Virus record (IMG/VR): IMGVR_UViG_3300027917_000169
Coordinates: 1 to 24,787 of that record
DNA length: 24,787 nucleotides
Strand: one strand, 5' to 3'
From: a virus
Part shown: piece after piece, positions 2,681-18,913 of the stretch
Position numbering within the stretch: position 1 is the first letter of the stretch
How the letters are laid out: each line of letters begins with the position of its first letter
Program-made: the position numbers and the translations under genes
The notes under the pieces: generated by a model
The model's database searches: none
What the model was told of the DNA's origin: nothing
The model's input: only the letters and a program-made list of their open reading frames with translations

Positions 2681-2977
2681 TTATTTAATAATAATTACAG
2701 GTAGTTGCTTGATTAATTCCCTCATATTGGCCGCAATCCACGCCACAAGAGCCGCTTTCGCCGGTCCTTTGGCCTGGTCCCAAACGGGTTTAATGAAAAT
2801 ACCTGTTTCAAAACACCACATTACATAATCAATGTACGGGTCATCATCCTTGACAGCCTCAGATCGGGCCTCCTCACCTTTTCTGAGGGCCAACATAAAG
2901 GCAACGTTACCCCTCGCCCATGCGTTTAAACGTGCTTGAAGGTCAGCCAGAGCCGCTATAACGTCCTTATTTGCCAT
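2681..2977 (-). CDS. Hypothetical protein at the end of the late operon (98 aa)
   Basis: Last gene before the terminator. It overlaps the upstream TM-protein gene by 11 bp, so it belongs to the same operon. The sequence is mainly helical: an N-terminal helix (VIAALADLQARLNAWARG), a charged linker with DDDPYIDYVMWCF, then a C-terminal helix (AALVAWIAANMRELIKQL) and the hydrophobic tail PVIIIK. There is no clear transmembrane span or signal peptide. Position next to endolysin and TM proteins suggests the lysis cassette, but no family is recognised. Confidence 0.65.
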   Translation of the reverse strand: MANKDVIAALADLQARLNAWARGNVAFMLALRKGEEARSEAVKDDDPYIDYVMWCFETGIFIKPVWDQAKGPAKAALVAWIAANMRELIKQLPVIIIK

Positions 2978-3245
2978 TTCTGGACCTCACCTTCTTGATG
3001 ATCTTGTCAAGCTTCTTTTTCCGTTTTGGCTTAACCTTAATCTTGGTTCTAATGTTGCCCGTAATCACCTTTGCATGGTCTGCCAATAACGGATTATTAA
3101 CAGCATCTTCAAGGTTCTCTACCAAGGTCTCGGTGATATTGTCAGAATCCCTAAGCTGCAATATTGTCCTGACAAGCCAGCCAACAACAAAAGCAAGCGA
3201 TCCTAAAAACTCCCAGTTATCCACAATCCAAGATAAGTTTTCCAT
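2967..3245 (-). CDS. Single-TM membrane protein, holin-like or lysis accessory (92 aa)
   Basis: ATG 3243-3245 overlaps the upstream TGA by one base (TGATG); the upstream GTG (3246-3248) is less likely. Residues ~13-31 form one hydrophobic span (FLGSLAFVVGWLVRTIL), followed by an amphipathic acidic stretch and a very basic C-terminal tail (KVKPKRKKKLDKIIKKVR). One N-terminal TM with a charged cytoplasmic tail is compatible with a holin or a lysis accessory protein. Gene order endolysin, two mini-ORFs, this gene supports a lysis role, but the sequence alone does not prove it. Confidence 0.65.
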   Translation of the reverse strand: MENLSWIVDNWEFLGSLAFVVGWLVRTILQLRDSDNITETLVENLEDAVNNPLLADHAKVITGNIRTKIKVKPKRKKKLDKIIKKVRSRNGK

Positions 3246-3424
3246 CACATGTCCTTCCCGATGGCCACAGCCGCTTCCAGGATGTGTTCAAGGTCTTGCA
3301 TCATAGCAGCCGCATGTAAGTGTCCGGTTTCTCTCAGCCGCTCCTCAATCTGTGATCTTCCTTCCGGTGAGCCGAGTGCCGCCGCCGCTGAGTTGATACT
3401 GTCAACAATAGCCTTAATATCCAT
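3245..3424 (-). CDS. Small helical protein of the lysis cassette (59 aa)
   Basis: ATG 3422-3424 follows AAAGGAAA at good spacing; the frame ends at TGA 3245-3247 and overlaps the next ATG by one base. Translation starts MDIKAIVDSINSAAAALG and continues with a charged helix (RSQIEERLRETG), then HAAAMMQDLEHILEAAVAIG. It is soluble and probably two or three helices, with no signal or membrane span. The gene tiles the space between the 25-aa ORF and the TM protein exactly. Family not recognised. Confidence 0.7.
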   Translation of the reverse strand: MDIKAIVDSINSAAAALGSPEGRSQIEERLRETGHLHAAAMMQDLEHILEAAVAIGKDM

Positions 3425-3528: not shown

Positions 3529-3897
3529 CTACGCCCCACCCCAGCGGGCCGGGAATCCTCGAACATCAACATGTACAAAGCCGTTCTTTGGATAGAATCC
3601 GATCCCACCACGCCTGAAACTATCGACCATCTTGGCGAGGTCCATGGTCTCCTTTGGGGTCATGGTTCTGATTCTAATGTCGGCCGCCTTACCTAGCTTA
3701 TGTTGGCTATTTTCAGCGCCTCCCACGGCTTCATTGTGGCGCTTACATCTGCGGCCGGATAAAATCATAATAGGTTGTCCAGCCTTTAATCTCAGTTCCT
3801 CAAGTGAATCTATCAACTTCTGTGAAACATCTGATTCACCGCACCCGCAATGACAAGCAAATTCCCAACTGTTGAAATGCTCTGATAAATCTCCCAT
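3529..3897 (-). CDS. Endolysin, M15-family peptidoglycan peptidase (122 aa)
   Basis: The protein matches the compact Peptidase_M15_3 form of phage endolysins, which cut the peptide stem of peptidoglycan. It begins LSEHFNSWEFACHCGCG, typical of this group, then has SGRRCKRHNEAVGG followed by SQHKLGKAADI, supplying zinc ligands His66 and Asp73. The third ligand, His109, is in GFVHVDVRG, and the sequence ends near ARWGG. All three metal ligands are present, so it should be active. There is no cell-wall-binding domain and no signal peptide, so a holin is needed for export. GGAGGAGATC precedes the ATG. The stop is TAG. Confidence 0.92.
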   Translation of the reverse strand: MGDLSEHFNSWEFACHCGCGESDVSQKLIDSLEELRLKAGQPIMILSGRRCKRHNEAVGGAENSQHKLGKAADIRIRTMTPKETMDLAKMVDSFRRGGIGFYPKNGFVHVDVRGFPARWGGA

Positions 3898-3906
3898 GAT
3901 CTCCTC

Positions 3907-4575
3907 CTATTCAGTTCGGTAGATTAGCTGGGCCGTAAAGTACAAACCGGCTCCGTCTGATTCTTCATCAAAAAATATAACAAGATCTCCGTCACCGGGT
4001 GCGGCGCTTCCCCCGAGAAAAGTGGTCAAGTTTACATCAGTCTGCCACTGAACGGAGTTTGTATCTTTGTACCCTGAATTAACATATGTTAGTGTAGTTC
4101 CAGATTGCGTGAGGTCTAAGCCATAATAAGGATATTGTTGTAATTTCGGCATGGCGTAACAGCCCTTATTCGTGATTTTTGACCCATTGTACCATGTAAC
4201 ATCGCCGTTAGTTGCATCAATCCTTGTTACAGTGCCAAAGGTTATCTCCCAACTGCCCGTGTTAGCATCCAAGCAAGCCGTATAGATAATCTCTTTCAGA
4301 ATAACGTGGTCAGTCTCGCTATGAGGGTAATTTGTGGTGTCGGATAGATCAATTACAATGAACCTTTGATCTCCAGTAAGCGCCGTACCTTTGGGAAGGT
4401 GTTGATAGACCACGTTCCACGGGTAATCGGCCTGATATACATCAATAGCCGTGCCGCTGTTAATCTCCCTGGTCGTGGATACGCCAGCCTCGAAATGGTA
4501 GCTGTAAGCCGTGCTCCCAAATGTTCCCACGAAAAGGATCAAAAATATGATTGCCGTTATTTGCGCTCTGTTCAC
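3907..4575 (-). CDS. Exported or membrane-anchored protein of unknown function (222 aa)
   Basis: It starts with GTG (4573-4575) preceded by AGGAGG at good spacing. Residues ~6-25 are a signal peptide or anchor (ITAIIFLILFVGTFGSTAYS), with a plausible cleavage after AYS. The rest is beta-rich and Gly/Thr/Asp-rich with two cysteines (TACLDAN, NKGCYAMP) that could pair in the periplasm. The C-terminal half alternates strands (DLVIFFDEESDGAGLYF). It is the last of four consecutive genes with N-terminal hydrophobic signals, immediately before the endolysin. Family not recognised; a surface-displayed or envelope role is inference. Confidence 0.75.
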   Translation of the reverse strand: MNRAQITAIIFLILFVGTFGSTAYSYHFEAGVSTTREINSGTAIDVYQADYPWNVVYQHLPKGTALTGDQRFIVIDLSDTTNYPHSETDHVILKEIIYTACLDANTGSWEITFGTVTRIDATNGDVTWYNGSKITNKGCYAMPKLQQYPYYGLDLTQSGTTLTYVNSGYKDTNSVQWQTDVNLTTFLGGSAAPGDGDLVIFFDEESDGAGLYFTAQLIYRTE

Positions 4576-4584
4576 AATATCCTC

Positions 4585-5166
4585 CTAATTATTTGTGTGT
4601 TCGTACCACCCTGCATTGAGATTCACTAAATTTGCCGCACCGGCCTCGTTGTTTACTTTAAGTATGTATTTAGTATCCTGTTTTAAGACGATTTCATTGT
4701 CATTCCTGGCTACCCCGCCTTCAAATCGCCCTGAGCCTATCCTGTTGCTGCCTATAGAAGTTCCAAGACTTGCCACTGTTGGATCGACCGCCCACGTGAT
4801 GGTCGCTGAGTGTGCGCTGTTTCTATTATTATTGTAGATTGTTATAGCAGTTCCTCCGCTTGCGGTTGCCGCTTCGTATAGGACTATTTCACATTCTCCT
4901 TCGCAGCTTCCATCCATTAGCAAATGGCCCCATTCTGTAGTGTTAGGAGTAGTTATCAAAAATTGCAAGCTATCCCCACTGGCAACATCACGATAGCCTT
5001 GATAGTAAAAATGAGAGCCTGAGTGTATTTCATTATGTGCGTAGTCCACAGTTTTAGCTGAATTGGTTGTAGTGTCAAGCTCCAGCGGCAAGTAGGTCGC
5101 CATTGAAACCAAACCAAGTATCATTAAAAGTGTGATACCTATTGCCGATTTTTCTCTCGCTTTCAT
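4585..5166 (-). CDS. Conserved phage virion-type beta protein with N-terminal anchor (193 aa)
   Basis: The body resembles a widespread phage family of unknown role seen near structural genes: HSGSHFYYQGYRDVASGD, then a strand with LQFLITTPNTTEW, ECEIVLYEAATASGGT, YNNNRNS and a C-terminal WYEHTNN. Unlike the usual members as I remember them, it carries an N-terminal hydrophobic segment (IGITLLMILGLVSMATYL, residues ~9-26), a signal peptide or anchor. The mature part has two cysteines in a GSCEGEC motif. The next gene starts after a 9-nt gap. Family resemblance is from motif memory; whether it ends in the virion or the envelope is open. Confidence 0.72.
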   Translation of the reverse strand: MKAREKSAIGITLLMILGLVSMATYLPLELDTTTNSAKTVDYAHNEIHSGSHFYYQGYRDVASGDSLQFLITTPNTTEWGHLLMDGSCEGECEIVLYEAATASGGTAITIYNNNRNSAHSATITWAVDPTVASLGTSIGSNRIGSGRFEGGVARNDNEIVLKQDTKYILKVNNEAGAANLVNLNAGWYEHTNN

Positions 5167-5175
5167 ATCAGACCC

Positions 5176-6087
5176 CTAATAAATAAACCAGTTAGTGCCA
5201 TCTGAGTAAACGGAAACAGAGCCATAATCAGTTGTGATGACTGCTGTGCTGGCCCCGTCTATAACATCTGCGGCCTGCGGGTCAATGGTAATATTATTGC
5301 CCGATGCTCCCCCGGCTTCGTCTTTGATGTGAATAACCCGGCCTTCAATTGTCTGTGCTGTTGGTAATGTGATAGTTGCTGCCGTGTTCGCACACAACAC
5401 GCCAACAAAATAGTCACTGACAACGGTTGAATAGCCGGTTGTACACGTTCCCCCGTCAATCGTAGCGGTCCTGTTGTGTGTTATCCCGCCCTGGAAGTCA
5501 GCCCCGTTTGTTGGATTAAACGCCATAAACTCGCCATTGCTGGCATTTAAAAATGAGATGTCATAGGCATCATTTAAAAGTCTTATTTCCAGGTCCGCAT
5601 CGGTATTGAACGGGAACACGGTGTCAAGGTAAGCCGCTACCTGAGCATATAATCTATTAGCGTGCCACCCCCCGGCCCCGGCGACTACTTTAAACTTGGT
5701 GTCTGATTCATCCCACCACACACGGGGAGCATCCGTCACATCAACGGTAATCACATCAACGTCAGTGTCAGACCCCGGAGTGTAGTTTATCCCGTTCACG
5801 GTGGCAACAGATACCGCACCGTTGAGGGTGGCTGTTCCGTCAACCGTCAATGCTCCATCAATGGAAGCCCCAGCAGATGTATAAACAGTAGTCCCGGAGA
5901 TTTCATCTGCGGTAATATCGCCTGTGACAGCAAGATCACCACCTATTGTCGCATCCCCGGTTGTCGTTATGGTTCCTGATACGAAAGCCCCGAAATACTC
6001 ATAATGGGTAGCGAGGCCGGGCACGGCCAAAGCAAGGCCACACACAAGGGCCAACAGGGTCCAAAGAGCCTTGCTTGATCTGGTCAT
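5176..6087 (-). CDS. Secreted tail-fibre-like protein (303 aa)
   Basis: A typical signal peptide covers residues ~1-27 (basic TRSSK, hydrophobic LWTLLALVCGLALA, possible cleavage after ALA or GLA). Residues ~35-105 are short beta repeats rich in G, T and D (TTTGDATIGGDLAVTGDITA), as in fibre shafts. The C-terminal ~60 residues match the fibre-tip pattern: TITLPTAQTIEGRVIHIKDE, then NNITIDPQ, VIDGASTAVI and a final YSDGTNWFIY. Fibres are normally made in the cytoplasm, so the export signal is unusual. It overlaps the upstream gene by 4 bp. It may be displayed on the cell envelope or processed before assembly; both are inference. Confidence 0.78.
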   Translation of the reverse strand: MTRSSKALWTLLALVCGLALAVPGLATHYEYFGAFVSGTITTTGDATIGGDLAVTGDITADEISGTTVYTSAGASIDGALTVDGTATLNGAVSVATVNGINYTPGSDTDVDVITVDVTDAPRVWWDESDTKFKVVAGAGGWHANRLYAQVAAYLDTVFPFNTDADLEIRLLNDAYDISFLNASNGEFMAFNPTNGADFQGGITHNRTATIDGGTCTTGYSTVVSDYFVGVLCANTAATITLPTAQTIEGRVIHIKDEAGGASGNNITIDPQAADVIDGASTAVITTDYGSVSVYSDGTNWFIY

Positions 6088-6506
6088 CGTACTATACTCT
6101 TGAGCGTCATATCAACATCACACGATGAGCAAGCTGTAACATTACCCCGGCATTGATCGGCATTGAAATTGAAATGGTAGCTATCGCCTGACGCAATAGT
6201 GGCCATGTCGTACCATGTTGTCCCGGCATCCGGCGAACACTGGAATTTAACGGTTGCAGTCCCAGACGCTACGGTAACATATACCGTGTGCTGATTCTGT
6301 CCGTCAACCGTCATCCCTGATCCTGCCCCGGTCGCAGTTACACCATCAAGTAGGGTGTTCCCCGCTACAGCATTAAACGCTATTGACCTGTTGCCACTTG
6401 GCCCGATTTCCGTATAGTCGCTGGAAATCGTAAAGCCTATTGCCCACTTTGCTCCAATAAGGACAAACACAACTATGATGATCGCCTTAAATAAATCTCT
6501 GTCCAT
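6084..6506 (-). CDS. Small exported or anchored beta-sandwich protein (140 aa)
   Basis: AGGAGG precedes ATG 6504-6506. Residues ~8-24 are hydrophobic (AIIIVVFVLIGAKWAIG), a signal peptide or N-terminal anchor. The remainder looks like a compact beta domain: NQHTVYVTVASGTATVKFQC then GTTWYDMATI and DSYHFNFNADQC. The mature part has four cysteines (FQC, DQC, TAC, SSC), which would suit disulfides outside the cytoplasm. The domain resembles small phage proteins that describe a mean signal on a particle surface, but I cannot name a family. The gene ends with an ATGA overlap into the fibre-like gene. Confidence 0.72.
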   Translation of the reverse strand: MDRDLFKAIIIVVFVLIGAKWAIGFTISSDYTEIGPSGNRSIAFNAVAGNTLLDGVTATGAGSGMTVDGQNQHTVYVTVASGTATVKFQCSPDAGTTWYDMATIASGDSYHFNFNADQCRGNVTACSSCDVDMTLKSIVR

Positions 6507-6516
6507 AATAGACCTC

Positions 6517-6777
6517 CTATGTAACCAACTTTATGATCCCGAAAACAATGCCTGAAATTGCAGATACTACAAGCCCGGCAATTCCTAATCCTATCCCGAC
6601 ACGCCTTAGTGACATGGACTTCCAGTTATTATAACGTTCATGCTCTTTCTCATGTGCCTCGTTTGACACTTCCAGCTTTGCGACCTTTACCTTGATGTCT
6701 GACATATCATCTTTCAATCCGTCTACTTTTGTATGTAGCCCGTCAATGCTTGCCGTTAAATGGTCTAGGTCTTTCAT
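6517..6777 (-). CDS. XhlA/holin-like protein: coiled coil plus C-terminal TM (86 aa)
   Basis: The N-terminal ~45 residues form a coiled coil (LHTKVDGLKDDMSDIKVKVA and KLEVSNEAHEKEHERY), and residues ~60-84 form one C-terminal hydrophobic span (VGIGLGIAGLVVSAISGIVF). This layout is that of XhlA-like phage membrane proteins, which assist lysis, and of similar small tail-region proteins. It overlaps the upstream lipoprotein gene as ATGA. Together with the M15 endolysin downstream it could be the holin or a partner. Layout supports this; exact role is not proven. Confidence 0.68.
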   Translation of the reverse strand: MKDLDHLTASIDGLHTKVDGLKDDMSDIKVKVAKLEVSNEAHEKEHERYNNWKSMSLRRVGIGLGIAGLVVSAISGIVFGIIKLVT

Positions 6778-7358
6778 TGTGATACTTCCTTTCCGATTAA
6801 ATTACCTATAATAGCCTGTGACTCCGGTGAATAATGCACTCCGTCAGCACGATTCAAGTGGCAAGTTAAAATGTCCGGGTCTTGCTGGTCGGCTATTGAC
6901 CGATTACCATATGGACAGGTTTCAACTACTATGATTTTAGCTTGTGAAAAATCCTGATACATCCATGATAGCACGGTGTCCAGCTTGTCTTGATATGTGG
7001 CAACTAAAGCAGCTTGCCTGAAATCAGCCTCCCCTTGAATCCAAACCACAGCGGCCACAGGATCACCGACGAATGGCAAAAGAACATCATCATAATAATT
7101 TGCAATCCATTCATCTATCCTGGTTCCTGATATTCCATTCTGCTTCACGCAATGGTCAATCCCCGTGTATGCTCTGGCCGATTGATTGGTTGCGATTCCC
7201 AACGTGTAGCCCAAAGAATTAGACTGGCCGGTTATTATGATAATGGGCTGACCGACTTCGCACTTCTCATTAACGGGCATAGGGGTTTTTGTTTCAGCCT
7301 GTTTGTCAGCGCACCCGGCCAGAATAATTAATGCTATGGTTAATAAATACTTCATCAT
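6774..7358 (-). CDS. SGNH/sialate-O-acetylesterase-like lipoprotein (194 aa)
   Basis: Residues 1-16 form a lipoprotein signal with lipobox LAGC; Cys16 would be lipidated, and the following Ala does not give inner-membrane retention, so outer-membrane sorting is expected in a Gram-negative host. The SGNH hydrolase blocks are present: GQSNSLG with nucleophile Ser46, a VVWIQGEAD block at 104-112, and DGVHYS with Asp172 and His175. This is the pattern of the sialate O-acetylesterase-like carbohydrate esterases (SASA family), which remove O-acetyl groups from sugars. Length is short but catalytically complete. It overlaps its neighbours by 4 bp on both sides, in the tail-to-lysis region. Possible roles are surface receptor modification, superinfection exclusion or virion-associated deacetylation. 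Confidence 0.83.
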   Translation of the reverse strand: MMKYLLTIALIILAGCADKQAETKTPMPVNEKCEVGQPIIIITGQSNSLGYTLGIATNQSARAYTGIDHCVKQNGISGTRIDEWIANYYDDVLLPFVGDPVAAVVWIQGEADFRQAALVATYQDKLDTVLSWMYQDFSQAKIIVVETCPYGNRSIADQQDPDILTCHLNRADGVHYSPESQAIIGNLIGKEVSQ

Positions 7359-7849
7359 GCGATAGCTATTGTTATATAGCCTCCTCTAACATCGGTAACA
7401 GCACCCGCATCCGTAGCCACCCGGACGCTCATATAGTTTGTTGTTGTTGCAGTTATATCAGTGATGTCAATTTCTGTGTTACAGTTCCCAGAACCTTTGT
7501 TAGTGGCTGTTGTCTGATCACTAATTTCATGTTCATAGGCTATTACTGCTCTGTTGGCACTGGCATAGACCATAACGTGAGTTGCCTTGTATCCTGTGGG
7601 TATATTATATGTTGCCACCATATAGTCAGCCGCTACAGCCGGTGCCCTTATGAATGCACCCGATACTCCCTGCATTTCCAGGGGTGCATTAGTGTAGTCG
7701 GTAGTAACAAAATCACCGGGCAGTATTTTAATTCTCGTCCCTGTTATATCTTCGACAAAATCAATATTATTCCTGATCTTGTCCATCAAGGTCTGATTCA
7801 ATGGACTGTTGGCATCTGTTTCAGAACTTGCTATCGGTGACCAAGCCAT
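7355..7849 (-). CDS. Small baseplate/fibre-type tail protein (164 aa)
   Basis: The N-terminus contains ANSPLNQTLMDKIRNNIDFV, a motif I recognise from phage tail fibre and baseplate-associated proteins that begin with W-P and then N-S-P-L. A beta-rich C-terminal domain follows (YKATHVMVYASANRAVIAYE, ending GGYITIAIA). AGGAGGATAT precedes the start. It follows the tail hub gene directly. No enzymatic motif or export signal. A structural role at the tail tip is likely from motif and position. Confidence 0.7.
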   Translation of the reverse strand: MAWSPIASSETDANSPLNQTLMDKIRNNIDFVEDITGTRIKILPGDFVTTDYTNAPLEMQGVSGAFIRAPAVAADYMVATYNIPTGYKATHVMVYASANRAVIAYEHEISDQTTATNKGSGNCNTEIDITDITATTTNYMSVRVATDAGAVTDVRGGYITIAIA

Positions 7850-7858
7850 TATATCCTC

Positions 7859-9850
7859 CTAAAATATCAAATAGCCGTCATCAAGTGCGGCACCTAGTTT
7901 ATTGTCTGCGTTTCCAATCCATCCGTAAACGTTCTTATCTGCGCTGGTCGCATCATAATCATTTGAATCCGAACTTATCAGACAGTATTTGTTATCGCCG
8001 TATCCGGTGTCAATAACGGTGTAATCAACCTCACCACCCTTGATTTGATGCTTGCGGATAACTTTATAAAAACGTGCATCCTCGGCACCGTCATCATCAA
8101 CCACTTCGGGGATGGTAATTTCTATCAGGTCTGCTATTTTCTCACCCTCGTTGACGAGTCCGGTTGTGAATTTTATTATAGGTCGTGCTGATATGTTTGC
8201 TGTAAATTCATGAGCGGCTAGCCATGTGGCCTCGGCTGTGTCTTTTATCCACTCTGAGTAGATAACTTTATCCCGGACCTCGTTATATGAGTTTGAACTT
8301 TCAGCATCTTTATCAATGTAAACATCTGCTGCTGAATAGTTGTCAGGGCTTTGTCCAGGGTCAGCACTTGAAGGATCATAATAAACCGTTACCCGTGTAA
8401 TCCTCATTTCCTCATTTCTAAACAAGGTGCGCTTAGTCCAGTCAGCCTCGGTGTATGAATTAGGAGTAGTTGAATACAGTGGAGGTTTATTTATCCGGCC
8501 TTCAACATTGCCGCTTTCGTTGACCCACATGTCAGCCATGACAGACCGTTTTATAGTGTTGATTCGCTCGTTCACCTTTGTTGGTTTTTCCAATCTTGCG
8601 GCGTACAAAAAGCCCTGAATCCAGTTTCCAAAGTCGTTTGAAAAGCTGAGAACGTCCACATCATCGTCATCAGACAAGGCCGCCGGAGTAGTCCCGTAAC
8701 ATCCACGCTTACATCCTGTAAGGTCCGCTCCATCCTTACCAGTGTAACGGATAAATTCTGATCCTACCTTAATAATGCCAACCCCCGGCAAATCTGCAAT
8801 ATCTGAAACCGTGATCGTGGTTGCCGTCGCCAATTGATTGCCGTCTATCTGTGTATCTATCCCAGTGTCAACCTCTAAATAACTTGCACTCACGCCGCCA
8901 AGATTGACCACAAGGTCTGCTAGAATGTGATCCACGGGCAATCCGGTTACGGCATCCCAATCGCCATCACTGGCATCGACTTCACCGTAATAGTTAACCT
9001 GAGTTATAGCCGTGCCCTGGATGTGAGCAGCTGCCGTCGATCCCATAACGCCACGAACACAGCCCGTCAATTGATCCGAACTGATAGCAGTATAGGCGAT
9101 GATTTCATTTTCGATCTTGACAAAGCGATATTGATTGACGGTAGATGAACCACTATCAGCATCCGGTGATTCAAAATGATCAGATGCACTATAACTACCT
9201 GAGCCGTCATCAAGGTTTATTGTAGTAGCTCCATCCGTCAACGGGTTATCATCAACGACAACCTTAGCCGGTATCTTCGCCGGTGTCTCGTTCAAGGTTG
9301 CAGACCATAGCAAATCGAGGCAGTCAATGACAATGCCATTCTGTGACCAGTCAATATTGTCCATGATACCACGCCACTTGAGAGTTGACGTGCTCCCGTC
9401 ATACCAGTATAACTCAGCCAGCCGTCCACGATAAGCGGGGTTTCTGGCTAACCAGTTAGGCCAGTAGTTTCCTGTATCAGCGGCATCACTGGCTTTCGCT
9501 AAATCAAATAACTTGTCCGGGTCCGCTATTTTGTGGTGGGTGTCTGCTACAAGCTCAAAGCGAATGTTACCCCGTGTGGTTTTGAACTTGTCAGGGTTAA
9601 TCTCTGTAGGGAGAGCACCGGAAGGATTATTTAGATAGGGTACCGCCCCGGACAATTTTAAACCCCTTGAGCAATATTCAAATATCTTTGTTCCTTTGTC
9701 ATAGTTCACCTGATCTTCGCATGTATCATAGGTGTAATGGCATTGGCTGGTAGCAGTACAAGTAACGGCCGCACCATACATGTACAGATTCTCTAACGTG
9801 CATCTGTCAAGTGTCAGCTTTAAGTGCCAGCCTTTAGAAGTAGGAGCCAT
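7859..9850 (-). CDS. Tail hub / tail-tip protein (663 aa)
   Basis: Size, place after a distal-tail-like protein, and mixed beta content fit a tail hub. Residues ~18-60 carry a cysteine-rich segment (TCTATSQCHYTYDTCEDQ, then FEYCSRG) like gpL-type minor tail proteins of lambda-like phages. Two copies of a beta motif with G-x-I-K-x-x-x-E-x-I-x-Y-T and then L-T-G-C-x-R-G lie at ~240-285 (VKIENEIIAYTAISSDQLTG) and ~341-400 (IIKVGSEFIRYTGKDGADLT), each followed by RG and an Ala-rich or Thr-rich loop. Similar modules occur in tail proteins and may be accessory domains. The ATG overlaps the upstream TAA by one base. The C-terminal ~60 residues (GYGDNKYCLIS...) look like a small separate domain. Confidence 0.75.
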   Translation of the reverse strand: MAPTSKGWHLKLTLDRCTLENLYMYGAAVTCTATSQCHYTYDTCEDQVNYDKGTKIFEYCSRGLKLSGAVPYLNNPSGALPTEINPDKFKTTRGNIRFELVADTHHKIADPDKLFDLAKASDAADTGNYWPNWLARNPAYRGRLAELYWYDGSTSTLKWRGIMDNIDWSQNGIVIDCLDLLWSATLNETPAKIPAKVVVDDNPLTDGATTINLDDGSGSYSASDHFESPDADSGSSTVNQYRFVKIENEIIAYTAISSDQLTGCVRGVMGSTAAAHIQGTAITQVNYYGEVDASDGDWDAVTGLPVDHILADLVVNLGGVSASYLEVDTGIDTQIDGNQLATATTITVSDIADLPGVGIIKVGSEFIRYTGKDGADLTGCKRGCYGTTPAALSDDDDVDVLSFSNDFGNWIQGFLYAARLEKPTKVNERINTIKRSVMADMWVNESGNVEGRINKPPLYSTTPNSYTEADWTKRTLFRNEEMRITRVTVYYDPSSADPGQSPDNYSAADVYIDKDAESSNSYNEVRDKVIYSEWIKDTAEATWLAAHEFTANISARPIIKFTTGLVNEGEKIADLIEITIPEVVDDDGAEDARFYKVIRKHQIKGGEVDYTVIDTGYGDNKYCLISSDSNDYDATSADKNVYGWIGNADNKLGAALDDGYLIF

Positions 9851-11226
9851 TATGCACTTATCCCCTCTTCTTCCATCCGGCCCTCAAGGGTAAACGTCAA
9901 ATCACGGTATAACCCCTGATATGGCATTGTGTGTCTGTTATCTGCAAATCGCATCAAACGTGCCTCGTCACTATGGTTAGTGGCATCCCATACAAATATG
10001 AAATTGCTTTCACGGTAATCGAATATAAATGGCTTCCAGGTATCATCAATGAAAGTCTGTGTAATCAGATTGCTGGTATAGGTTGATTTCCTCATTGTGT
10101 GCTCGTGGTTAACCTCCAGCATGTACCCAGTGCCCCCGATCAACTTGTTATTGACATCTTCTAATTCGTCCGGGTCATGTGGTGTCCGGGATAGCCTTGG
10201 CAGTTCAATTTTCTCCCCCACATACCATATGCCGAGTTGAGGTATGAAATTAGAGCCGCCATTGTTGTCATATGTCAGCTTGAGAAACAGGAAAGGCTGT
10301 GTCGGAGTAAAGAACTTGGCTATCGTTTCATCTCCATTGGGAGGAGCAAAAGCAGCTATTTCTTCTGCGTATCCTACCCCGCCTACGCTTGATTCCAATT
10401 TTATTCTCGTAATTCCAACAGTATCGAAATTATGACCGGCCAGCCCCATGCAATCAACACTCTGAGCCGATGCATGATAGAGGGTAGCACAAGTGGCTGT
10501 CATGCTGCCGCCCGTTCTCGTGTCAACAAAGAACTCGATTATATGACTGTTTAAAGTAGTTGATTGATAGTTGCTGCCTCCTGCGTAAGTGCCGTTAGCA
10601 TGATATGATGAATCATTGTCATCATAGACCTTGCATGTGACATCGCCATTGGTTTCACGTTCAATATTTATCCGGCCTGACGTACCCCCTCCTAATGTGT
10701 AGTCGTCAACATCCGTATAACTTCCAGCATTGGCATCTCTGGAAAATGTAATACGTGGTGATCCTCCGTTATCGTCAACCTTGGCCCTCACCTTATAGCC
10801 TGCGGCAAATTCAAGTTCCCAATACCACTCCGAACTAGTAGCAGTTGCGAATGCCGTAGCGTCAAACACAAGCTCCATTGCGAAGTTAGAAGCTACGGTC
10901 AATGTACCATCCTGGTTGATGTCGGGGTTGTCATTAGCATTTGCGCCGCTGTTATAAGTCAGCGCACCGCCGGATACTGACAAAGTACCATTGGCATCTG
11001 TCTCGGTCCACGAGTCAAGATTATCGAATGTATCACCTAGAGCGCCATTAGCAAGCTCTGCCACGATATTATAAGTTGCCGCCCCACTGGATTGAACGTA
11101 TGTATATTCTTTCCAGTCCTGAGTATTAGCCACAGGATAACCCGTATCAGAAGCGCTAGCGGTCAATGTAGCCGATTCAATTATATCGCCGCTCCTTAAT
11201 ATTCTAGGATTTGCACAAGTAGACAT
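9850..11226 (-). CDS. Distal-tail-like protein with a nested lectin-like insert (458 aa)
   Basis: The N-terminal ~60 residues and the part from ~254 fit one beta-sandwich domain: TYNIVAELANGA ends before the break, and AQSVDCMGLAGHNFDTVGIT continues it (a galactose-binding-like domain typical of phage tail-tip proteins). Residues ~63-253 are an inserted domain that begins DTFDNLDSWTETDANGTLSV and has the strand pattern of concanavalin/LamG-like domains (ELEFAAGYKVRAKV, GRINIERETNGDV, HIIEFFVDTRT). The C-terminal part (EKIELPRLSRTPHDPDE...) is a distal-tail-style domain. Placed between tape measure and hub. The insert probably binds a ligand, perhaps a surface glycan (inference). Confidence 0.72.
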   Translation of the reverse strand: MSTCANPRILRSGDIIESATLTASASDTGYPVANTQDWKEYTYVQSSGAATYNIVAELANGALGDTFDNLDSWTETDANGTLSVSGGALTYNSGANANDNPDINQDGTLTVASNFAMELVFDATAFATATSSEWYWELEFAAGYKVRAKVDDNGGSPRITFSRDANAGSYTDVDDYTLGGGTSGRINIERETNGDVTCKVYDDNDSSYHANGTYAGGSNYQSTTLNSHIIEFFVDTRTGGSMTATCATLYHASAQSVDCMGLAGHNFDTVGITRIKLESSVGGVGYAEEIAAFAPPNGDETIAKFFTPTQPFLFLKLTYDNNGGSNFIPQLGIWYVGEKIELPRLSRTPHDPDELEDVNNKLIGGTGYMLEVNHEHTMRKSTYTSNLITQTFIDDTWKPFIFDYRESNFIFVWDATNHSDEARLMRFADNRHTMPYQGLYRDLTFTLEGRMEEEGISA

Positions 11227-18006: not shown

Positions 18007-18243
18007 TTAATTGCCTTCCGGGTCTTCAATTTCATCGGTCCTTCTCTCGATGATTTCTACATAACCCCCATCTGCCATTTGATCAACGTTAGTGGTTTTC
18101 TTCTTTTCCGTGCCCTCGTCAACTTCGATCTCTTTGACTTCCATATCAACCACGTCACCATCCCTCAGATTAAGGTCGGGTCCACAGATGTTAGATTTTA
18201 CCAAAACCTTAGCCATTTTCTTTTTGATTGTTTTCTTCGTCAT
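18007..18243 (-). CDS. Small CGPD-motif phage protein, paralogue A (78 aa)
   Basis: I chose ATG 18241-18243, preceded by GGAGGA at good spacing, although it overlaps the glycosyltransferase gene by 35 bp; an ATG at 18214-18216 is a shorter alternative with a weaker site. The conserved part MAKVLVKSNICGPDLNLRDG is followed by DVVDMEVKEIEVDEG. The last half is acidic with VDQMADGGYVEIIERRTDEI. It is similar to the next gene (17725-17985), which suggests duplication. Role unknown. Confidence 0.62.
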   Translation of the reverse strand: MTKKTIKKKMAKVLVKSNICGPDLNLRDGDVVDMEVKEIEVDEGTEKKKTTNVDQMADGGYVEIIERRTDEIEDPEGN

Positions 18244-18913
18244 GAGTCGTCCTCCAATGTTGAATTGATACATGATCTTCCACAATGTGCCCGCAGACCA
18301 GAGAGGTGTCGGTGTAAATCTTAAACCGATCCCCGAACCTGGCCTTTTCGCAAAAAAGCACATCCTCCGAGACGCTTTGCTCGCCTGTTATTTCGTTTAT
18401 TTTATACCCAAACCAAGGAGATTTAAGCTCCTTAAATACTTTCACGGGAGTTATCGCACAACCCATCCCGATTAGATCGCATTCAACAAGGTCGGCATCT
18501 CCCTTAGTCGGGTCAATATTTTGATACACGTTTGATACCGATGTCCGGTATCCCTTGTGCGCTATAGCTGATATGCATTCATAAGGTGGTCCCTTTTTAA
18601 AGTATGTCCCTGACACTATCCCGCCAGCCGTTCCAATACAGTTCTTAACAAGCCTTTGTAATGTATCAGGAGGGAATGTCATATCACCATCAAACCAGAC
18701 CAGCATATCCGCACCACGTTTCATGGCCTCTCTTGCGAGATTGTTCCGGTTAAAATCAATGGGAAATTGAGGGCTGATAAGCTGTACCGTTTCGTAGATT
18801 CCAAGTTCTCGCAAGGATTCTAAGTTATCCGACATCATCATCGCCATCATCGACTGAAAAAACGCACGATGAACATAAGGCCAGGTATTCGGTATGCAGA
18901 TCGCTAGTTTCAT
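18209..18913 (-). CDS. GT-A-like glycosyltransferase (234 aa)
   Basis: The fold pattern is a GT-A/GT2-like glycosyltransferase: N-terminal strand MKLAICIPN, a strand/helix region (PIDFNRNNLAREAMKRGADM), and the metal-binding DGD at residues 75-77 in LVWFDGDMTFPPDTLQRLVK. Further on are GGIVSGTYFKKGPPYE, GMGCAITPVKVF and, near the end, SEDVLFCEKARFGDRFKIY and CGHIVEDH, with the late histidine often seen in these enzymes. It should move a sugar from an activated donor to an unknown acceptor. It has no signal peptide or TM. It sits between head and connector genes, an unusual place, so a virion protein or cell surface could be the target. Confidence 0.8.
   Translation of the reverse strand: MKLAICIPNTWPYVHRAFFQSMMAMMMSDNLESLRELGIYETVQLISPQFPIDFNRNNLAREAMKRGADMLVWFDGDMTFPPDTLQRLVKNCIGTAGGIVSGTYFKKGPPYECISAIAHKGYRTSVSNVYQNIDPTKGDADLVECDLIGMGCAITPVKVFKELKSPWFGYKINEITGEQSVSEDVLFCEKARFGDRFKIYTDTSLVCGHIVEDHVSIQHWRTTHDEENNQKENG

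Follow-up and report, generated by a model that had tools for sequence, protein, structure and literature searches.

Tailed phages are taken to make and assemble their virion proteins, fibres included, inside the cytoplasm. Virion proteins with Sec signals are known from the inoviruses, whose coat proteins carry them; filamentous phages assemble in the membrane. Among tailed phages, T5 encodes Llp, a disulfide-bonded lipoprotein whose gene lies directly downstream of the receptor-binding protein (RBP) gene and which blocks the receptor FhuA (PMC9586334). The purified RBP, pb5, also blocks infection when added alone, and Llp-type genes are usually positioned just past the tail-tip gene (PMC9586334). 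Bacterial receptor-binding DGR target proteins are exported binding proteins, and phage-encoded DGR proteins are reported to have neither signal peptides nor TM regions (PMC6199706). In the open-access literature searched we found no tailed phage described as having tail fibres with a signal.

The window analysed here is a virus record of 24,787 bases. Unlike the inoviruses, it represents a tailed phage, with genes for capsid, portal and tape measure in a siphovirus-like order on the minus strand. From the terminase end, the portal (phrog_12), protease (phrog_80) and HK97-type capsid (phrog_10) genes are followed by a 149-aa gene, the 483-aa gene P0007 (18968-20419), a glycosyltransferase-like gene (18209-18913, directly after P0007), connectors, the tape measure and the tail tip (phrog_11439). 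Among named phages, Streptomyces phage Chymera has the closest capsid (37%). Downstream of the tail tip lies a run of six genes at 3907-7358, and then an M15 peptidase endolysin. The left edge of the run is P0011, a 164-aa cytosolic tail-tip neighbour (7355-7849, minus strand), and its right edge is the endolysin, which has no signal (3529-3897, minus strand). All six ORFs were recovered on the minus strand, separated by 9-10 bp or overlapping by 4 bp, and a search for a terminator-like site on the run's own strand found none. This packing suggests that the run would be expressed together with the tail and lysis genes, late in infection.

Five of the six genes in the run, and P0007, encode an N-terminal export signal or anchor, as does no other structural gene of the window. 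The peak hydropathy over 15 N-terminal residues is 2.05-2.87 in the five run products and 2.93 in P0007, with all other window genes at or below 1.79, a value set by the holin-like gene at 2967-3248. A basic n-region, a hydrophobic h-region and either small residues at -3/-1 or a lipobox were scored by a single home-made rule, which is crude and uncalibrated, and were present in P0001, P0002, P0003, P0006 and P0007. Candidate cleavage sites, placed by this rule and by eye, are TAYS/YHFE, SMA/TYLP, GLA/THYE, AIG/FTIS and VLA/AIPD, and the lipobox LAGC of P0006 was read directly. P0004, whose n-region is neutral, is scored by the rule as an N-terminal anchor only. By the same rule, 5 of the 26 window genes of at least 90 aa score as signal peptide or lipoprotein. 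How significant this enrichment is varies with the background chosen: the binomial probability is 1e-5 against a background of genes as far as the tail tip from 80 related loci (8/688) and 0.0025 against all scored genes (38/1012). Taken together, the ORFs, the hydropathy split, the cleavage motifs and the lipobox bear out the observation in the initial annotation of a run of envelope-directed proteins between tail tip and endolysin, and predicted export of these proteins and of P0007 has good sequence support. Of the six genes originally grouped, five keep their place by virtue of an N-terminal signal or anchor; the sixth, a coiled-coil/TM product, is anchored at its C-terminus and lacks an N-terminal signal.

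That product, P0005 (86 aa; 6517-6777, minus strand), combines a coiled coil with a C-terminal TM segment. Its best match is the haemolysin (XhlA-type) lysis family phrog_1193, at a weak E value of 0.009, with no Pfam XhlA match. It is probably an XhlA-type lysis-cassette gene outside the exported set.

Most of the exported bodies are, by homology, phage virion-type domains, and this is what is new here. A search of profile databases, proposed with the initial annotation, returned matches for P0002, P0003 and P0006 and left P0004 an orphan. P0001 (222 aa; 3907-4575, minus strand) carries a signal peptide ahead of a domain whose family comprises SI2 DVVG_00043 and 18 IMG/VR loci. The SI2 homologue has no signal and sits between genes that read from sequence as terminase-like and portal-like; an AF2 model of P0001 reached a pLDDT of 37. 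P0002 (193 aa; 4585-5166, minus strand) has a signal peptide or anchor followed by a phrog_5335 beta-sandwich domain (E 5e-12), a profile also matched by six relatives. Its AF2 model is all-beta and confident from about residue 50, and the top BFVD matches are phage proteins. Its nearest homologues have no signal. The closest, in locus L104, aligns at 37% identity from residue 30 onward, where the P0002 signal has just ended, begins with the signal-less N-terminus MSGFTKSPAVDRS and is located between terminase- and protease-like genes. In MEP301 the signal-less homologue gp38 lies between the terminase and a head-tail connector; indeed, the signal-less phage homologues of P0001 and P0002 mostly lie within head or terminase-portal gene blocks. 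Other phrog_5335 members are LIMEzero ORF57, the last gene of its genome, behind the endolysin, and a Vibrio phage 1.223 protein encoded after a Mu gp48-like gene.

P0003 (303 aa; 5176-6087, minus strand) is the fibre-like product of the run, with a signal peptide, fibre-like repeats and a probable C-terminal T4 gp9/10-like baseplate/fibre domain. It matches phrog_20556 (E 4e-8), PF07880 below the cut-off (E 4e-4; 21.0 bits against 25) and, by tblastn, halovirus baseplate proteins (E 9e-7). The same C-terminal domain occurs in signal-less baseplate or spike proteins. P0007 (minus strand), the second gene after the capsid gene, likewise joins a signal peptide to fibre-like repeats and a C-terminal head, which is homologous to an exported 264-aa fibre of the most closely related locus, L012. 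This homology and the hydropathy value bear out the earlier suggestion that P0007 belongs with the run, and the signal-less phage homologues of P0001, P0002 and the P0003 C-terminal domain, with the exported homologue of the P0007 head, argue for the further suggestion that structural-like proteins are sent to the envelope. P0004 (140 aa; 6084-6506, minus strand) has four Cys residues in its mature part. P0006 (194 aa; 6774-7358, minus strand) is, as first described, an SGNH lipoprotein: behind its lipobox it matches the SASA/SGNH esterase family PF03629 at 34.5 bits (cut-off 24.8), and the motifs GQSNS, WIQGEAD and DGVH, read directly, are intact. Against the Llp/Cor family this SASA protein showed no sequence match beyond a hit to phrog_1119 (Cor) at E 0.38 over the signal region. 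Single-protein scans found no relatives of P0003 among viral contigs or of P0007 and P0006 among phages, and PDB sequence and fold searches gave no significant match.

The run resembles the T5 Llp and Cor systems in that a phage encodes exported envelope proteins just past its tail-tip or RBP gene; the lipoprotein P0006 has a comparable position, and Llp contains a disulfide. In contrast, Llp and Cor are each a single small lipoprotein (PMC9586334), whereas the run has several signal-bearing domains of fibre type and larger size, and its lipoprotein is a predicted esterase. With ordinary tail fibres and baseplate proteins (phrog_20556, T4 gp9/10-like, phrog_5335, SO2946-like_C) the run shares domains, repeats and gene neighbourhoods, but the homologues examined are signal-less and the products of the run carry a Sec-type signal ahead of the domain. 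Bacterial DGR target proteins are exported, as the products of the run are predicted to be, unlike the phage-encoded ones, reported to be signal-less (PMC6199706).

The cysteine content of the mature exported products had been offered as weak support for disulfides, and the counts (2, 2, 2, 4, and 4 besides the lipidated Cys) were reproduced. At aligned positions, nearly all signal-less homologues lack the Cys pairs seen in P0002 and P0003, the exception being one position in MEP301. This pattern is suggestive for these two proteins only. In the P0001 family the exported L249 protein has one Cys and the signal-less L234, L235 and L236 proteins have two, and an even number was dropped as a general test; the argument fits P0002 and P0003, fails for the P0001 family and stays weak.

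The 80 related loci were collected via the tail tip; gene calls are automatic and contigs are fragments. The best tail-tip match, L012, in which the P0011 N-terminus is conserved, is the only one of the 80 whose interval behind the tail tip encodes several fibre-like proteins with signals. Among its products are a signal-bearing 540-aa protein with an SO2946-like_C domain (E 8e-21) and a lipoprotein that contains an SLT lysozyme domain; after the endolysin, signal-bearing fibre-like proteins of 212 and 264 aa are found. In the slot after the capsid-like gene (L224, reverse strand), the contig of L012 has several larger genes. Signals recur within individual families as well. In the P0002 family the L070 protein (and the identical L226) has one, and those of L104, L055, L024, L038, L228 and MEP301 do not; in the P0001 family L246 and L249 have one and 16 other loci do not. 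Downstream of the capsid-like gene, directly or past a gene of about 180 aa, fibre-like proteins that begin with a signal or anchor are encoded in L219 (6105-7442), L234 (3583-4725), L240 (3990-4607) and L250 (3398-4711), and similarly in L242 (3778-4707), where the capsid call is broken. Four of these five share sequence, and the gene slot is that of P0007. Because signals recur in other uncultured phages, an assembly artefact is unlikely, and an artefact of a single genome was discarded.

Signals on fibres are otherwise rare. A signal or anchor was scored in one (L219) of 100 complete viral ORFs that contain the motif G-[DN]-L-x-V-T-G-[DN]-I-T, and an earlier pass over 65 gave one, a doubtful, GTG-started case. 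Across all loci collected, 11 of 194 proteins of fibre-like composition carry a signal or anchor, ten of them from the recurrent groups and one a likely false call. In genome scans, tail-tip relatives turned up in Bordetella, Castellaniella, Hyphomonas, Rhodovulum and Chloroflexi/Anaerolineaceae MAGs, with no signal-bearing fibres downstream; scans for phrog_5335 across 398 genomes from the phylum to which the Bordetella genome belongs, and for the L250 fibre and P0008 across 400 genomes from that of the Chloroflexi MAG, yielded nothing new. Small signal-bearing proteins also occur in head/tail blocks of related prophage-like loci (L052 3213-3623 and 6166-6603, the latter weakly matching tail-protein family phrog_16194 at E 0.003; L033 2131-2520 and 4950-5381). 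The contig of L070 encodes a signal-bearing 228-aa protein resembling an outer-membrane beta-barrel among non-structural genes (L230 14613-15299), and L228 a signal-bearing 117-aa protein (971-1324) about 5 kb upstream of its signal-less P0002 homologue.

We tentatively favour, at somewhat below even probability, the explanation that virion-type receptor-binding or fibre domains have been redirected to the envelope, where they occupy or modify receptors in the late stage of infection. The phage would encode such domains fused to Sec signals, together with an envelope-anchored carbohydrate esterase. Late in infection the fibre domains would pass through the inner membrane and, once folded in the periplasm or at the cell surface, bind there the receptors or glycans used by the phage, and P0006 may remove acetyl groups from a surface glycan. 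The dying cell and its debris would then be poor targets for superinfecting and progeny phage, by analogy with T5 Llp and FhuA. Consistent with this proposal are the clean split in N-terminal hydropathy among window genes, the start of P0002 homology to a signal-less phage protein just behind the signal, the signal-less homologues of P0001 and P0003, the recurrence of signals in the P0001 and P0002 families, the similar L012 layout in the same interval and the intact esterase lipoprotein. Receptor blocking does not explain why P0007 adjoins the capsid gene, and head-gene blocks likewise contain the signal-bearing genes of L246 and L249 and the fibres of L234 type. In addition, Llp acts by allostery from the periplasm and not as an RBP copy.

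The capsid-side fibre is better accounted for by the main rival, which we consider possible but unlikely: the exported proteins are true virion fibres, secreted and folded in the periplasm, possibly with disulfides, that join heads and tails when lysis mixes the compartments. The bodies are virion-type, the slot after the capsid gene is common to the window, L219, L234, L240 and L250, and the run occupies the place after the tail tip where the relatives GJ44, P12026 and 1N2-2 encode signal-less tail fibres or spikes of the ordinary kind, with no other large fibre gene past the tail tip in the window. However, no tailed phage is so described in the open-access literature searched, receptor binding could reside in the tail tip or in the 458-aa gene at 9850-11226, and L234-type N-termini seem uncleaved, which would leave those fibres in the membrane. 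The lack of a clear cleavage site in P0004 and the L234-type proteins would suit cytosolic proteins whose N-terminal helices are hydrophobic virion anchors or membrane-insertion segments serving assembly and infection, and tape-measure and ejection proteins do have hydrophobic segments. This is very improbable given the basic n-region in five of six proteins, small-residue cleavage motifs in most and the true lipobox of P0006; moreover, homologues without the helix build virions. Also improbable is that the proteins are lysis helpers or lysogenic-conversion surface proteins with no relation to the virion. They are encoded amid lysis genes (M15 endolysin, holin-like, XhlA-like), the same stretch of L012 contains the SLT-domain lipoprotein, and the P0002-family gene of L070 also adjoins small TM genes. 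Nevertheless, the genes are tightly packed with tail genes, with no separate promoter or terminator evident; the bodies are virion-type and not spanin-like; and no integrase or repressor was found in the window, which is a fragment.

On a wider scale it is conceivable, though we would not expect it, that several unrelated uncultured tailed-phage lineages secrete or membrane-anchor fibres, part of the virion maturing in the periplasm or at the surface and either joining particles at lysis or coating the host as a phage-made layer. If fibre export in several lineages is true, receptor blocking by phage-made fibre copies would be an undescribed superinfection strategy, or virion assembly would be partly extracytoplasmic. 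Phage annotation would then change as well, as a signal peptide would cease to argue against a fibre role.
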